Shown piece by piece: positions 906-15,572 of a DNA stretch of 20,538 nt. The stretch is taken from positions 1 to 20,538 of the IMG/VR virus record IMGVR_UViG_3300037189_009414; one strand, 5' to 3'. Under the pieces are notes generated by a model, which did no database searches, was not told the DNA's origin, and was given only the letters and a program-made list of their open reading frames with translations. The position numbers were made by a program, and so were the translations under genes. The stretch is from a virus. Positions within the stretch are counted from its first letter, which is position 1, and the number at the start of each line of letters is the position of its first letter.

Positions 906-1307
906 ATGAAAGCAATTTTCTTCGCAACGCTGTTGGCGGTATCGCCCGCATGCGCATCCGATGTTGATACGTTATTGAATGAAGCGGCTCGACGTCACAA
1001 TATCCCGCCCGAAATTATCAGGGCAGTAGCACACATTGAAAGTACGAAAAGATGCGGTCTCAAAGACGGGCCACACCGTGGCATTATGCAAGTCAGCAGA
1101 GCCACAGCGAAAGAGGTTGGATATCCTTGGCCATTCAAGAACTGTTTCGAAGAGATCGAAGCGGGTGCGATTTATCTCAGGAAAGCATTAGACCGTGGCG
1201 GCGAGGATTGCGATGGCATTTCCCTTTACAATACGGGAACTTACGCAAAGCCAAGATGTACCGCATACGGCAGGAAAGTAATCGCAGCGATGAGGCGCGG
1301 AGTTTAG
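906..1307 (+). CDS. Exported lytic transglycosylase / endolysin (SLT-lysozyme fold)
   Basis: 133-residue peptidoglycan-cleaving enzyme. Residues 1-17 are a signal peptide ending ACA before SD. The mature part shows the soluble lytic transglycosylase signature: HIES with the likely catalytic Glu45, GIMQV at 59-63 and YNTG at 108-111. Such enzymes cleave the MurNAc-GlcNAc bond, forming 1,6-anhydro-MurNAc. Four mature cysteines (C50, C80, C102, C118) could make two disulfides, consistent with a periplasmic site. A GAGGA Shine-Dalgarno lies in the end of the holin-like gene, about seven bases upstream. The mature protein is close to a bare catalytic domain, which fits a phage endolysin reaching the wall by Sec export. 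A virion-associated or entry role is less likely given its neighbours. Confidence 0.88.
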   Translation: MKAIFFATLLAVSPACASDVDTLLNEAARRHNIPPEIIRAVAHIESTKRCGLKDGPHRGIMQVSRATAKEVGYPWPFKNCFEEIEAGAIYLRKALDRGGEDCDGISLYNTGTYAKPRCTAYGRKVIAAMRRGV

Positions 1308-1317
1308 GAGATGAATG

Positions 1318-1536
1318 ATGCATGTCACTAAATTTATTATTGAAGAACGAACGCAATACAAGGGTTTAACGAGATTGGTTGAGCATAAAGAATTTGCGGC
1401 TTACGTGGAGAACAAGCCGCACATCCAAGGAATTGGAGATTCAATGCTTGAGGCGTTGGTTAAGTTAGATGTGCAATTGGATTTTCTTTACGGTGATCCA
1501 ACTGATCAATTGTTCTCAAATCCACGCCGGAATTAA
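1318..1536 (+). CDS. Small protein, weakly HicB-like (72 aa)
   Basis: Two in-frame ATGs are available, at 1315 and 1318. AGGAG at 1306-1310 is seven bases from the second, so 1318 is chosen. The middle of the protein (EFAAYVENKPHIQGIGDSML) followed by EALVKL loosely recalls the HicB-type fold, in which a strand with a G-DS/T turn precedes an EAL helix. No HicA-like toxin is next to it, so an antitoxin role is not supported. It sits between the lysozyme-like gene and the primase region and is probably co-transcribed. Function unknown. Confidence 0.65.
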   Translation: MHVTKFIIEERTQYKGLTRLVEHKEFAAYVENKPHIQGIGDSMLEALVKLDVQLDFLYGDPTDQLFSNPRRN

Positions 1537-1548
1537 GGAAATTGATTT

Positions 1549-1863
1549 ATGGACATTGCGGAGTGGGCAAGAACCAATCAGGTGAATCTTCGGTCAATGA
1601 CGGCGGGTTCGCAAAAAGTTAAATGTCCGAAATGCAGTTCTGTTCGGAAAAATGGTAGCGATCCGTGCCTCTCAGTCCGGATCGACAATACTGGAATCGG
1701 GTGGCGTTGCCACCATTGTGGATGGTCGGGAGGCCAGTTTAATGACGCGCATAGGGAAAATACACGCAAAGTTTTTGGAAGACAGGCATCTGAACGTCCA
1801 AGCGGCGGCGGATATGGGCATTTACAGCGGCTCGCAAGATCAGGATGGCAATGTCAATCCTGA
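1549..1863 (+). CDS. Zinc-binding domain of a T7 gp4-like primase, in a separate frame
   Basis: 104 residues. Residues 26-29 (CPKC) and 54-57 (CHHC, followed by GWSGG) form the zinc ribbon found at the N-terminus of T7 gp4-like primase-helicases, where it recognises the primer start site. Residues 1-62 look like real protein. The tail from about residue 63 is the out-of-frame reading of the downstream TOPRIM-helicase and has no family features. The rest of the enzyme lies one base over, in the +1 frame. The reading could be a free zinc-finger protein, the front half of a +1 frameshift product, or one half of a gene broken by an indel or assembly error. Start: ATG preceded by AAGGA about nine bases upstream. 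Confidence 0.7.
   Translation: MDIAEWARTNQVNLRSMTAGSQKVKCPKCSSVRKNGSDPCLSVRIDNTGIGWRCHHCGWSGGQFNDAHRENTRKVFGRQASERPSGGGYGHLQRLARSGWQCQS
1728..1733 (+). promoter_or_regulatory. Internal Shine-Dalgarno (GGGAGG) for the helicase start
   Basis: GGGAGG lies eight bases before the ATG at 1742, inside the end of the zinc-finger coding sequence. This is ideal spacing and decides the start of the TOPRIM-helicase reading frame. It matches the way T7 makes its short gp4B form from an internal start. Confidence 0.6.
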
Positions 1864-3238
1864 CATCGAAGGCAAGATTCTCGTCATGCCGTTCATTCGT
1901 GGCGGCAAAGAAGTCGGCGCGAAATATCGCGGCCCGAATAAAACGTTCTGGCAAAAAAAGGGCGGGGAGAAGGTCTTCTTCAATTCCGACGTATTGGATG
2001 ATCTCGCGCTCACGAAGGGGGACGCGGCATTGGTCATTACGGAAGGAGAATTGGACGCGGTCGCGGTCGCTGCGGCGGGTTATCCTTTTGTCGTATCTGT
2101 CCCAGATGGTGCGCCACCAGCGCGGGACGGGGAAGGCAAACTGATCAATGTCCCAAAGGGGACGGACGATATCGATCCCGAAACCGACACGAAATTTTCC
2201 TACCTTTTGGGAGAGTGGGATCGGCTCGCGAAAATCAAACGGATCGTCATCGCGACAGATGGGGATGAGGCGGGACAGAGACTGGCTCAAGAACTCATTA
2301 GGAGGCTCGACAGGGCGCGTTGCTCGTTCGTGACCTACCCAGAGGGGTGCAAGGACGCGAATGACGTTCTGAAGGCCGCAGGAAGCGCGGGAATCCACGC
2401 CCTGATCGAAGGGGCAAAGCCGTATCCAATCGACGGCCTGTATAAAATGGATGATTTCCCCGACACGGGGGCAATCCAAACCTATTCTACTGGCTTCCCA
2501 ATGTTGGACGATTACGCGAAACCATATCTCGGCGCGTTTATGGTCGTGGGCGGTTTCCCTGGTCATGGGAAATCCACTTGGACAATGCAATTAGCCGCCA
2601 ATATGGCTCGAATGCATAAATGGAATATCGCGGTCGCGTCGTTTGAAATGCAGATTGTGCCATACGTCACTGACGCATTAATGGGCGCATTTTTTGGCGG
2701 CAACATTCGTTACGCGGCCCCTTCCACGCGGCTGTCAGCGAGGCAATTTGTCAATCAGCGGTTTACGTTCATCGCGCCGAATCGGGCGGATTTTGAGACT
2801 GAGCATGATATCGATTGGCTCATTGATAAAATGCAGACGGCTGTCGTTCGCGAAGGCGTTAAAATGGTTTTAATCGATCCATTCAATGAAATTGAGCATC
2901 GCAAGCGGTCGGACGAATCAACAACGGAATATATTGGTCGAGCAATTCGCAAGTTAAAGAGTTTTGCTCATGAATTCAATGTCTTAGTTTGTGTCGTCGT
3001 TCATCCTACTAAAGCGTCGTCTCAAATGGATAGTGAGGATTTGGGATTGTATAATCTCGCGGATTCGAGCCATTGGGCCAATAAAGCAGATATTGGCATT
3101 ATTGTCGGTCGTCTTGGAAATCCGCAAATTGACACGTTGACGGGGATTTACGTCAAGAAAATCCGGTATCAACCGGACGCGGGGCAATTGGGAATGACGA
3201 CATTGAATTTTGATAAATCGACAAGATTGTTTTCGTGA
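1742..3238 (+). CDS. TOPRIM primase - DnaB-type replicative helicase (T7 gp4-like)
   Basis: 498 residues from the ATG at 1742. The N-terminal part carries a TOPRIM domain with TEGELDA (Glu101) and ATDGDEAG (Asp173, Asp175), the metal-binding residues for primer synthesis. The C-terminal RecA-like helicase has Walker A GFPGHGKST (271-279), Walker B-like MVLID (375-379) and VVVHPTK (His421). It would unwind the replication fork and, with a zinc domain, prime the lagging strand. The frame is open upstream to an ATG at 1652, but those 30 residues are the zinc-finger DNA read out of frame, so the start at 1742 is preferred. The zinc domain is supplied, if at all, from the other frame. It is followed by a strong terminator, making it the last gene of this operon. 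No DNA polymerase is in the window. Confidence 0.9.
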   Translation: MTRIGKIHAKFLEDRHLNVQAAADMGIYSGSQDQDGNVNPDIEGKILVMPFIRGGKEVGAKYRGPNKTFWQKKGGEKVFFNSDVLDDLALTKGDAALVITEGELDAVAVAAAGYPFVVSVPDGAPPARDGEGKLINVPKGTDDIDPETDTKFSYLLGEWDRLAKIKRIVIATDGDEAGQRLAQELIRRLDRARCSFVTYPEGCKDANDVLKAAGSAGIHALIEGAKPYPIDGLYKMDDFPDTGAIQTYSTGFPMLDDYAKPYLGAFMVVGGFPGHGKSTWTMQLAANMARMHKWNIAVASFEMQIVPYVTDALMGAFFGGNIRYAAPSTRLSARQFVNQRFTFIAPNRADFETEHDIDWLIDKMQTAVVREGVKMVLIDPFNEIEHRKRSDESTTEYIGRAIRKLKSFAHEFNVLVCVVVHPTKASSQMDSEDLGLYNLADSSHWANKADIGIIVGRLGNPQIDTLTGIYVKKIRYQPDAGQLGMTTLNFDKSTRLFS

Positions 3239-4211: not shown

Positions 4212-4988
4212 TTACAGGCGGACGACAAAACCGGACGTATCGCGTTTGGCTTTATGTCCTTTCGGGGTTAATCCGACGATGACTCCCGCCGGATCTAGAA
4301 ACCGCAAATCGTGCTCGTCTCCGTTAATCACCTTCGAATGAAGAAAAGACTCGGGATGAGGTAAAACACCAAATACCACAGCACAAGAGACGCTTCGTGA
4401 GAGTAGAATTCTGGCGGTTTCATGGTTCGTTTCCGATACGCTAAATGTTAAATGGTAATTCGGCGGTAACGTCCGGTCGAACCGCCGAGCATTTTTTGTA
4501 TAGTCGAGGAATTGGATTTCAGGGAATGCCTCGAATATGTTTCGATATTTTTGCGCGGGAAATTCCCGCCCGAGAATTCCGGAAATCTTTTTGGCTACTG
4601 ATTCCGGAATTTCAAACGCTACGCCTTCAAATGCGATATCGGTCGAGCCATTCGGGCGGATCGCTGTTTTGAGTCCGGCGGCTTGCGCCTTCCGGTATAG
4701 TTTCGCGCAATGCAGGGCGAATTCAGACATGAACGCGCCGCGCTCTTTCATGAAATACCGCGCCTTATAAATCCGGCTTTGCTTCACCTTGCTCGAAATT
4801 GCGGCTTGTCCGCTATGTTCGCCAAGACAAAGGGAAATGCACCCTTTCGACGCGTGAGAACATAGGTTCCCGACGCCGCCCGCCTTATGGGGAGCCATAT
4901 AGTTGATCCCGTTAAGATATCCGAAACCGCCCGCTTTTATGGCTTTCGGGTTGTCATGGGATAAAAATTTCTCAAATCTCGGTTTCAT
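4212..4988 (-). CDS. GP88-family phage protein (mycobacteriophage L5 gp88-like)
   Basis: 258 residues. The order of motifs matches what I recall of the GP88 family: LS-DN-KA near the start, NLCSHASKGCISLCLG at 41-56, a charged helix with KARYFM, RPNGSTDIAFEG at about 112-123, LDYTKNARRFD near 160, PPNYHLTFSVSE near 175, and a C-terminal GLTPKGHKAKRDTSGFVV. The three cysteines C43, C50 and C54 (CX6CX3C), with glycines around them, look like a metal or Fe-S site; this is inference, and no activity of the family is known to me. Its start overlaps the upstream gene by 17 bases. It is the largest gene in the minus-strand cassette and probably its main product. Confidence 0.78.
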   Translation of the reverse strand: MKPRFEKFLSHDNPKAIKAGGFGYLNGINYMAPHKAGGVGNLCSHASKGCISLCLGEHSGQAAISSKVKQSRIYKARYFMKERGAFMSEFALHCAKLYRKAQAAGLKTAIRPNGSTDIAFEGVAFEIPESVAKKISGILGREFPAQKYRNIFEAFPEIQFLDYTKNARRFDRTLPPNYHLTFSVSETNHETARILLSRSVSCAVVFGVLPHPESFLHSKVINGDEHDLRFLDPAGVIVGLTPKGHKAKRDTSGFVVRL

Positions 4989-12443: not shown

Positions 12444-15400
12444 ATGTCCAATTGGAAAAAAGAGGCGAAAGCGGCATCAGAAGCAAAATTGAACCGCATG
12501 GGCCTTAATAAAAAGACCGCGAAAACGCCAACGTTTGATGGCGTACACGCGTGGGATGGCCTTGAAGGTCTCGATTCCGGCCATGCTGGCAAAATGCCCG
12601 TAAAGAAATCGCGCTTTAAGCGCGGCGGCAAAGTCAAGCATATGGCGGCTGAAGGCGGCGCGTCGAACAAGCATCTCGGGAAAGCCCCGCGCTCCAAGAA
12701 AGCGCATGGCGGCGTCCCTCCAATGGAATTTTATGAAAAGAAGAAATTCTCGACGCCTTACGTCAAGGGCGGCGGTCAAGGAACCGCGAACGAATATAAA
12801 GACGACAATCCTCGCGTTTATCAGCAAAGCGGTGGCATTGAACGCACCGCGATGGACCGCCTGAAAGAAAACGTTGGTCTTGTTCCGGAACAAAAGAAGG
12901 GTGGCCGCATCAAGAAATTGTCGGGCGGCGCTCTCGCACGTTACCGTGAGAAAGCGGGCGAAGATCTTCAAAATCAAAAGAAGTCAAAAGATCGCATGAA
13001 CCTCGCGAATATGAAATCCATGATGTATGGCGAGCCAAATCGTCCGTATCATCCTCGCGACATCATGGAAACGGAAAAGCGTATGTCACGTCGTGAACGC
13101 GGCATCCGTATGGCGGCTGATAAGTTCTCAGGAAAAGCGAACGTCGGCCCATCAGAAGATGAGTACGCTCGCGGTGGGTTCGCCGCCAGCAATCCAGCGG
13201 CCCGCAAAGCGATGGCAGCGAAAATCGCGTATAAGAAAAAGGGCCAAACAGGTTTTGGCAACATCAATTACGGCATGCCAAAAGCAAAGGGCGGCAACGT
13301 CGGACACGAAGACATCGCTGAAGATCGCAAGTTGATCCGTCAGGAAGTCAAAGAATCAGCGTTGAAAAACCGCGCTCGCAAAGGGGGCGGCGGAGAAACG
13401 CCTTATAATGGGCCAACTCATTCTTTTGATCTTGAAATGTCTGGAGGGGGCGAAAAAGCAATTCAAACTTTGGGCGGCCAAGAATCAGATTTTGAAGCCG
13501 CGTTGAATAAATGGCTCAATCTTGCGAAAAAAGCAGGATGGGAAGGCGTCAACGTTAAAAATATGCGGACATCTTATCCCGGAAGCAGCGCCGGGTTGAT
13601 GAACAAAGGTGGCCGCGCAAAGAAAGCGGACGGCGGGTCGCTTCGCGACCAATTCAATCAAGCGTTCCGTGATGCTCGCAATTCTGGCGAAAAGACGTTT
13701 GAGTGGAATGGCAAACAATACACGACGGAACTTTACAAACCAACGACTGGCCCATCGTTCCGTGGGCGTGGCCAAACTGTTCCTCAATATGGCCAAAAGC
13801 AAGTAAACAAAATGCCTGACGTTGACGTTATGGGCAACGCAACTGGCATGAAGAAGGGCGGGCGTGCGCATCGCGAAGATGGCGGACGTTTGTCAAAAGA
13901 TGAAATGGAAGCAAAGAAATTGAATATTTCTTCGCGCAAAAACGACATGGATAGCGATTTCAAAGCGCGTGATTGGCAAAATATTCCAGAAGTTGATTCT
14001 AAATGGAAACAATCTGGTAAAGCCGCGACAAAATCGGTTAACAAAAAAATGTATCCGCGCGGGAAATATCATCCATCTGAATATGGTGAAATGGGCGAAA
14101 ACCGTGCTGAAAATCCTATTTTGAAGGGACTCGCGGTAAATCGCGCTCTTGAAAAACAAATTGATATTGGCGGTTCTCGCACAAATCGTCCATCATTCAA
14201 AGGTTGGGCAAAAGAAACCAAAGAAAACCTTGGTTACAACGCAAAGGGCGGACGCATTCAACGTAAGTCCGGCGGTCGCACAAAGTCCAAAACCAACATC
14301 AACATCATCATGCCTCAAAATGGCGCTCCACAAGCACCACAAGGCGGCATGCCACAGGGAATTCCGCCGGAATTGATGGCGGCTCTTGCTGGTGGCGGTG
14401 GCGCTCCTGGAATGCCTCCTGCTGGCGCTGCTCCCGCAATCCCTCCAATGATGCCTCCTCCTGGCGGCATGCCTGGAATGGGTCCAGCGGGCGCTGGGCC
14501 TGGTCTTGGTGCGATGGGCGCGATGGGTGGCGGCGGGCCGGGCATGTCCCCTCCTATGCCTCCTATGCGTAAGGCTGGCGGTCGTATCGCAAAGCAAGGC
14601 GGCGGCGCTCTTGGCGAGTCTGGTTTTGGCGATCGTGCTGATCAGGGCGGTCGTCCGCGTGGTTCGCAATTCCATCGCGGCCCTGCGGGCGTTGGTGATA
14701 TGCCCAACCAAGGCGCAAGTTCACCTGTCCGCGGTGGCGGGATGACAAAGCCAGTTCCGGTTGGTGGAAAAGGTCCAACGCCATACGACCCGGGTCAAAT
14801 GAATAGTTTTGAACCGTGGCTTGGTGGCCAACCATCTCCTGGCGGCATGGGCGGTTATCCAATTCCTATGCGTCCACCGGGCGCGGAACAGCCAATGCCT
14901 ATGGGTCCGGGATTCCCGGGCGGCCCTCCGCTTTTCCCTCCGGGGTTTGGCGGCAGATATGACACAATGCCTAATCCATTTATTGGGCAAATTGGCATGC
15001 AACCATCGCCGTTTGGCGGGCAACCAATTTACCAAGGACCAGGTTCTCTTGGCCAAATTGGTGGGCAACCATTCCCAGCAGGAATGCCGCCTCAAGTACT
15101 TGGCATGCAACAAGGCCCATTTGCTTCAACGCAAGGTCCGCAAATGGGTTTTCAGCAACAAAACGCGACCCAGCAAGCGCAACCAATCCAGCAATCGCAA
15201 CCAATGGCCCGTAAATCCGGCGGTCGTGCGATGCCTAAGTATCGCATGAAGAACGAAGGTTCCGGCAGCGGATACGGACGTTTGCAGAAGGCAGATATGC
15301 CGCCAGCAAACGGAACGGCTCCTGTTGAACGCGGAAGAGGCGGTCGTAACGGTCCTTATGGAATGAGCGGTGTAGAGCATGCGCTTTACGGAACTCAAGG

Positions 15401-15572
15401 CCGTAAGGGCGATACGCCACAATATCCAAAAACGGATATCGCTCGCGCAGAAGGTTCTTACGCCGCGAAGAAGGGCCAAAAGTCTTCGGATAATCCTTAT
15501 CCAAAGGACCACGAATTCCACGAAGCGTGGGGTAGTGGTTACGGAATCGAATCCGGCAAAAAAGGAAAGTAA
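12444..15572 (+). CDS. Giant Gly/Pro/Met-rich repeat protein, virion- or assembly-linked
   Basis: 1042 residues, very basic and mostly low complexity. At least seven copies of a [KR]xGG[RK] motif, most followed 4-8 residues later by a second GG, begin near residues 58, 150, 386, 469, 599, 708 and 921. A compact segment near 408-428 (FRDARNSGEKTFEWNGKQYT) recalls a small motif seen in other phage proteins. Residues 623-707 and about 760-900 are Pro/Gly/Met-rich; 880-920 is Gln-rich. Near the end, EGSGSGYGRLQK recalls a pattern found in unnamed phage proteins. It lies between portal and the GroES-like/scaffold genes, with GGAG before the start, so a structural or assembly role is likely. Function unknown. 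The basic disordered chain could bind DNA; that is inference. Confidence 0.8.
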   Translation: MSNWKKEAKAASEAKLNRMGLNKKTAKTPTFDGVHAWDGLEGLDSGHAGKMPVKKSRFKRGGKVKHMAAEGGASNKHLGKAPRSKKAHGGVPPMEFYEKKKFSTPYVKGGGQGTANEYKDDNPRVYQQSGGIERTAMDRLKENVGLVPEQKKGGRIKKLSGGALARYREKAGEDLQNQKKSKDRMNLANMKSMMYGEPNRPYHPRDIMETEKRMSRRERGIRMAADKFSGKANVGPSEDEYARGGFAASNPAARKAMAAKIAYKKKGQTGFGNINYGMPKAKGGNVGHEDIAEDRKLIRQEVKESALKNRARKGGGGETPYNGPTHSFDLEMSGGGEKAIQTLGGQESDFEAALNKWLNLAKKAGWEGVNVKNMRTSYPGSSAGLMNKGGRAKKADGGSLRDQFNQAFRDARNSGEKTFEWNGKQYTTELYKPTTGPSFRGRGQTVPQYGQKQVNKMPDVDVMGNATGMKKGGRAHREDGGRLSKDEMEAKKLNISSRKNDMDSDFKARDWQNIPEVDSKWKQSGKAATKSVNKKMYPRGKYHPSEYGEMGENRAENPILKGLAVNRALEKQIDIGGSRTNRPSFKGWAKETKENLGYNAKGGRIQRKSGGRTKSKTNINIIMPQNGAPQAPQGGMPQGIPPELMAALAGGGGAPGMPPAGAAPAIPPMMPPPGGMPGMGPAGAGPGLGAMGAMGGGGPGMSPPMPPMRKAGGRIAKQGGGALGESGFGDRADQGGRPRGSQFHRGPAGVGDMPNQGASSPVRGGGMTKPVPVGGKGPTPYDPGQMNSFEPWLGGQPSPGGMGGYPIPMRPPGAEQPMPMGPGFPGGPPLFPPGFGGRYDTMPNPFIGQIGMQPSPFGGQPIYQGPGSLGQIGGQPFPAGMPPQVLGMQQGPFASTQGPQMGFQQQNATQQAQPIQQSQPMARKSGGRAMPKYRMKNEGSGSGYGRLQKADMPPANGTAPVERGRGGRNGPYGMSGVEHALYGTQGRKGDTPQYPKTDIARAEGSYAAKKGQKSSDNPYPKDHEFHEAWGSGYGIESGKKGK

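Follow-up and report, generated by a model that had tools for sequence, protein, structure and literature searches.

T7 gp4 is the textbook one-chain primosome, in which a zinc domain is tethered to each primase. What, then, should be made of a viral locus in which the zinc ribbon and the TOPRIM-helicase of such an enzyme are encoded in two different reading frames? We address this question for a 20,538-nt stretch of viral DNA (IMG/VR record IMGVR_UViG_3300037189_009414; the whole stretch is called the window below). An earlier note on this DNA had placed the zinc ribbon in a frame that opens at 1549 and the TOPRIM-helicase in the +1 frame, and it had left several readings: a zinc part that is a protein of its own or is joined to the helicase by +1 frameshifting, a one-base indel, or a broken gene.

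Layout of the locus and its two predicted products

The coordinates given in that note are correct to the base. The zinc open reading frame (ORF) runs from an ATG at 1549 to a TGA stop at 1861-1863, and the helicase ORF, in the +1 frame relative to it, runs from an ATG at 1742 to a stop at 3236-3238. The note had also singled out GGGAGG at 1728-1733, eight bases before the ATG of a 498-aa ORF, and direct reading of the sequence bears out the distance of 8 nt. The features of the locus are as follows.

1535..1539, plus strand: AAGGA, which lies 9 nt before the ATG at 1549 and probably serves the zinc ORF as Shine-Dalgarno site (direct reading)
1549..1863, stop included, plus strand: zinc-ribbon protein of 104 aa, with a primase-type zinc ribbon and a C-terminal tail (ORF reading, alignments, core profile)
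1624..1635, plus strand: CPKC, the first Cys pair; C26 and C29 invariant (alignments A2-A4)
1708..1719, plus strand: CHHC, the second Cys pair; C54 and C57 invariant (alignments)
1728..1733, plus strand: GGGAGG, Shine-Dalgarno site of the helicase and codons for the conserved Gly-Gly after the zinc motif (duplex dG −9.6)
1742..1863, plus strand: dual-coding overlap of 122 nt, which encodes the zinc tail and, in the +1 frame relative to it, the N-terminus of the helicase
1744..1809, plus strand: zinc protein residues 66-87, a low-confidence linker; residues 70-83 below pLDDT 50 (AlphaFold2)
1813..1848, plus strand: zinc protein residues 89-100, predicted C-terminal helix with the family motif YGxLxRxARxxW (AlphaFold2, alignments)
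1742..3238, plus strand: TOPRIM primase and RecA-type helicase of 498 aa, counterpart of T7 gp4B (domain, profile, and fold matches)
2042..2050, plus strand: EGE of the TOPRIM catalytic centre (E101-E103), invariant (alignments)
2258..2266, plus strand: DGD of TOPRIM (D173, D175), invariant (alignments)
2552..2575, plus strand: Walker A motif GFPGHGKS (G276 and K277 invariant; alignments)

The 498-aa protein carries the Pfam Toprim and DnaB_C domains in one chain, and its profile places T7 gp4 first among solved structures (5ikn, 6n7i, and 1q57). An AlphaFold2 model begun at the Met encoded at 1742 has a mean pLDDT of 91, is confident from about residue 6 onward, and has T7 gp4 chains (5ikn, 6n9x, and 1q57) as its best PDB fold matches. 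The TOPRIM EGE, the DxD, and the Walker A lysine are invariant in alignments A1 and A5. An N-terminal zinc domain in the helicase's own chain and frame is absent from the window and from the 193 loci of like layout described below. Taking the domain matches and the structure model together, the best reading of the ORF from 1742 is a complete T7 gp4B-like primase-helicase with an internal start. An upstream ATG at 1652 was considered as the helicase start and was ruled out; the relatives, the Shine-Dalgarno site, and the fold boundary all favour 1742.

The AlphaFold2 model of the zinc protein consists of a confident zinc ribbon (residues 1-65), the low-confidence linker, and the C-terminal helix, predicted with moderate confidence (pLDDT about 70). 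Searches with this protein against PDB sequences, PDB folds, Pfam, and NCBIfam returned nothing significant; the T4 primosome chains 8dvf and 8gao were among the top fold matches, at E values of 0.26-0.58, and weak PHROG matches pointed to DNA primase families. Homology with the primase zinc domain is nonetheless supported, because a profile of the zinc core also picks up the N-terminal ribbon in 62 fused primase-helicase loci, where it lies in frame with the helicase.

Compared with phages by blastn, the region gave no match. Other genes of the window include a small SLT-type transglycosylase (906-1307, plus strand), two genes upstream of the zinc ORF; a 258-aa protein (4212-4988, minus strand) that matches phrog_1617 (E 2.5e-49), a conserved family with no assigned function; and, directly after the portal gene, a 1,042-aa low-complexity ORF rich in Gly, Met, and Pro and in Lys (12444-15572, plus strand).

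Distribution and origin of the split

A change of frame between two domains that are normally fused has the look of an assembly indel or of a recently broken gene, and the relatives of the locus speak directly to that reading. The near-identical assembly IMGVR_UViG_3300032285_002150 aligns with the window across 8,235 bases without a gap and with 2 mismatches. The check that the earlier note had proposed, whether relatives keep the two frames, is answered in the affirmative: the layout is retained in all 20 of the other relatives found in the first search (viral contigs with helicase identities of 32-68% and overlaps of 113-155 nt) and in 193 of the 268 loci that were fetched in all by wider searches, a count in which duplicates are included and some virus contigs figure twice. 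The other fetched loci comprise 62 in which the two parts are fused in one frame, 12 that are truncated or without a zinc ribbon, and a single locus (L069) with an apparent −1 relation, which is probably an indel because its helicase reading frame is broken further downstream. Reduced to a nonredundant set at <90% nucleotide identity, the +1 loci number 123 and form 68 clusters. A +1 relation maintained across 68 divergent clusters, among them a deposited phage, a complete plasmid, and cultured strains, together with a second assembly free of gaps, rules out the indel and the broken gene; we would give that reading next to no chance.

The split occurs in cultured-host records of Nitrobacter, Bradyrhizobium, Methylobacterium, Sphingomonas, and Paracoccus, and also in Bradyrhizobium phage BDU-MI-1 (KY940711) and on a plasmid of Microvirga ossetica (NZ_CP016620). 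Both of these last two are annotated records, and in both of them the annotation includes the helicase but misses the zinc ORF:

KY940711.1, 17537-17743: unannotated zinc ORF in a deposited phage
L269 (NZ_CP016620), 2077-2370: unannotated zinc ORF in a PGAP-annotated complete plasmid

As judged from these sequences, many phages and prophages, chiefly those of Alphaproteobacteria, encode the T7-type primase-helicase as two overlapping, out-of-frame genes.

The relatives also include some loci of other kinds. Five records (L237, L241, L244, L245, and L268; Reyranella, Asaia, Rhodospirillales, and Rhodopila) hold gp4-like helicase genes, and a search of the 1.5 kb upstream of the helicase, in all frames, found no zinc ribbon. 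The TOPRIM motif of L241 looks degenerate. A Twinkle-like loss of priming is possible for these five genes. In the Nitrobacter winogradskyi copy (L200), the end of the zinc motif and the tail can still be recognised; the zinc gene may be truncated or rearranged there, because no complete zinc ribbon lies upstream.

How often did the split arise? In a tree of the helicase part (104 clusters), the 68 split and the 36 fused clusters fall on opposite sides of one branch with an SH-aLRT value of 98, which amounts to one change, and no return to a fused frame was seen among the members of the split clade. The tree was built by a quick method, and some long branches, such as that of L234 with the Rhodobacter-type group, are placed uncertainly. 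This topology points to a scenario in which a T7 gp4-type primase-helicase would have split once, long ago, into two overlapping genes.

Internal start of the helicase and selection in the overlap

A start codon preceded by a Shine-Dalgarno sequence (dG of −4 kcal/mol or better) lies inside the zinc ORF in 113 of the 123 nonredundant +1 loci, and the start codons, which stand at the same place, are ATG in 102 of them, TTG in 8, and GTG in 3. Shine-Dalgarno pairing with a dG of −5.5 or lower precedes 87% of the helicase starts versus 10% of 982 control in-frame internal ATGs from the same genes. The spacing between site and start in the relatives is mostly 5-9 nt. The site often doubles as the Gly-Gly codons after the second Cys pair, yet relatives with other residues there (L019-L021) have it too. 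Four sphingomonad-type loci (L096, L098, L107, and L226) have no ATG, GTG, or TTG at the usual helicase start; L226 carries GGAGG 8 nt before a CTG, and these four may begin the helicase further upstream or at a CTG. A T7-like internal start, which would give a zinc-less form, is a feature of this locus, but it is out of frame with the zinc ORF.

Past the helicase start, 68 of 68 clusters have no stop in the zinc frame for 28 codons or more, a number far above the 30.8 expected when helicase codons were exchanged synonymously under each gene's own codon usage; the clusters are related, and the combined probability is only a guide. We considered whether this openness is purely an effect of GC content. 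That explanation holds in part for GC-rich genes, since the corresponding place is open in 13 of 16 fused genes above 50% GC as well, and it fails for low-GC ones, where 15 of 15 split genes below 52% GC are open versus 1 of 18 fused genes at or below 50% GC.

The overlap also differs from the rest of the helicase gene in how it evolves. Among the 20 sequences nearest the window (the near group), stops in the zinc frame amount to 0% in the first 35 helicase codons versus 7.1% in the rest of the gene, the BLOSUM similarity of the zinc frame is 1.80 versus 0.38 (sd 0.30), and codon identity at shared amino acids is 0.536 versus 0.397 (sd 0.022). The Bradyrhizobium-type group behaves in the same manner, with stops of 0% in the overlap versus 3.0% in the rest, similarity of 2.16 versus 1.04, and codon identity of 0.676 versus 0.572. 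The excess in codon identity (Mann-Whitney p 2e-5 in the near group and p 0.008 in the Bradyrhizobium-type group) peaks at codons 21-34 and drops to background at the zinc stop (codons 36-40), and the strongest synonymous constraint coincides with the predicted tail helix. In these two groups, both frames of the overlap are under purifying selection.

The picture varies across the clade. Sphingomonas-type tails are long (75-175 codons) and show excess codon identity at codons 40-80; no clear excess was seen in the Rhodobacter-type group; and in high-GC members of the two types the first 35 tail codons are not conserved above background. Selection on both frames thus appears weaker, or is not seen, in the high-GC members, and we limit the proposed tail function to the near and Bradyrhizobium-type groups because in the high-GC members those 35 codons are at background and high-GC fused genes, too, are often open at this place.

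Two probable products of translation, their rivals, and their precedents

The internal start and the selected overlap bear on two further accounts of the locus. One holds that the two proteins are separate but that the out-of-frame tail has no function, the overlap being a frozen by-product of the original frameshift. The background-level tail codons of the high-GC clades, the variable length of the tail, and the partial dependence of openness on GC content all agree with this account. Against it stand the amino-acid and synonymous constraint on the zinc frame in the near and Bradyrhizobium-type groups, which is confined to the overlap and strongest at the C-terminal helix, and an openness across the clusters more than shuffling leads one to expect, and we regard it as unlikely. 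The other account holds that programmed +1 frameshifting joins the zinc part to the helicase in one gp4A-like chain, made either alongside the separate proteins or in their place. In its favour, the frame relation is always +1, every zinc ORF extends 28 codons or more past the helicase start, and four loci are without a canonical internal start; in addition, the NCC TGA C/T that closes the zinc ORF of some members is similar to known +1 sites of the RF2 type (PMC5009743).

The details of the junction nevertheless weigh heavily against a programmed shift. A search of the relatives for a slip cassette at the junction and at the zinc stop found no conserved P-site codon, stop, or junction motif: the last sense codons vary (AGA, CGT, CCC, ACC, GCC, and others), as do the stops (TGA, TAG, and TAA), with whole clades using TAG or TAA. 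In L002, L007, and L008 a helicase-frame stop stands directly before the ATG, so that the slip would have to fall inside the overlap; a slip near the ATG, for its part, would not need zinc-frame selection up to the zinc ORF's own stop. A strong Shine-Dalgarno site with a start codon, moreover, is conserved in nearly all of the nonredundant loci. The locus resembles RF2-type +1 frameshift genes in that a short 0-frame ORF precedes the main product in the +1 frame, and differs from them in that it has no conserved slip cassette, that its downstream ORF has its own start and Shine-Dalgarno site, and that its upstream ORF is a conserved domain (PMC5009743). We therefore consider frameshifting very improbable, and the chance is just as slim that minor +1 shifting yields three products from the one locus (a free zinc subunit, a helicase-primase, and a tethered chain) in a ratio set by translation alone. 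With respect to the choice that the earlier note had posed, it is very probable that the zinc part is a small protein of its own: two findings support this, the conserved internal start that a Shine-Dalgarno site precedes and the selection on the zinc frame as far as the stop of that frame. Frameshifting is not supported, since no conserved slip site was found at the junction or at the zinc stop.

We favour, at a probability of roughly 85%, a locus that encodes two separate proteins: a free zinc subunit with an overprinted tail and an internally started gp4B-like primase-helicase. Ribosomes starting at 1549 would make the 104-aa zinc-ribbon protein, whose last ~40 residues would derive from the beginning of the helicase gene, translated in the other frame, and are predicted to form a flexible linker and a short helix. 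Ribosomes starting at 1742, on the Shine-Dalgarno site inside the zinc coding sequence, would make the complete 498-aa TOPRIM primase and helicase. Since the TOPRIM residues are kept, we infer from analogy with the T7 and DnaG literature that the free zinc protein would supply template recognition to the primase in trans. The tail helix may dock on the helicase ring or on another replisome protein, in the role that a covalent linker has in T7 gp4A. With separate starts, the phage could adjust the amounts of zinc subunit and helicase independently of each other, and it is plausible that the layout sets the ratio of primase to helicase.

Parts of this arrangement have precedents. Overprinting is common in viruses. 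Corn and colleagues reportedly found, in 2005, that the zinc domain of DnaG primase acts in trans on a neighbouring subunit; such trans-action would make a free zinc subunit workable, but the DnaG zinc domain is covalently attached. T7 gene 4 makes a 63-kDa gp4A and a 56-kDa gp4B in equal amounts by means of an in-frame internal start (PMC12593628, PMC9198812); the zinc domain is found only in the 63-kDa form, and the 56-kDa form, to which the helicase ORF here corresponds, keeps helicase activity and has lost primer synthesis (PMC9198812, PMC12593628). The locus is like T7 gene 4 in having a primase zinc ribbon upstream and a TOPRIM-RecA helicase of matching fold downstream, and in having an internal ribosome-binding site and start that would give a helicase without the zinc domain. 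It is unlike T7 in that the two T7 products share one frame and the zinc domain of gp4A is covalent, whereas here the zinc part lies in another frame and has a tail of its own, and a counterpart of the 63-kDa gp4A would not arise without frameshifting. Group 2 jumbo phages likewise have stand-alone primase-type zinc ribbons, separate from the TOPRIM enzyme and beside what is described as a DnaG-like primase (PMC7824862); the description consulted mentions no overlap, whereas in the present locus the partner is of the gp4 type and its 5' end is overprinted with the zinc gene.

Our search of the open-access literature found no paper that deals with the overlap or with any split gp4-type gene. 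Separate primase zinc ribbons are already known, but an out-of-frame overlap of zinc and gp4-type genes with a dual-coded tail, split once and held clade-wide, looks undescribed. Because the zinc gene is unannotated in the two records examined, these phages look as if they were without a template-recognition domain. A clade with a diffusible zinc subunit and an overprinted tail would allow a direct test of whether the zinc domain of a primase must be tethered, and the split enzyme would also let one test what the tail binds and how the ratios of the subunits are set.
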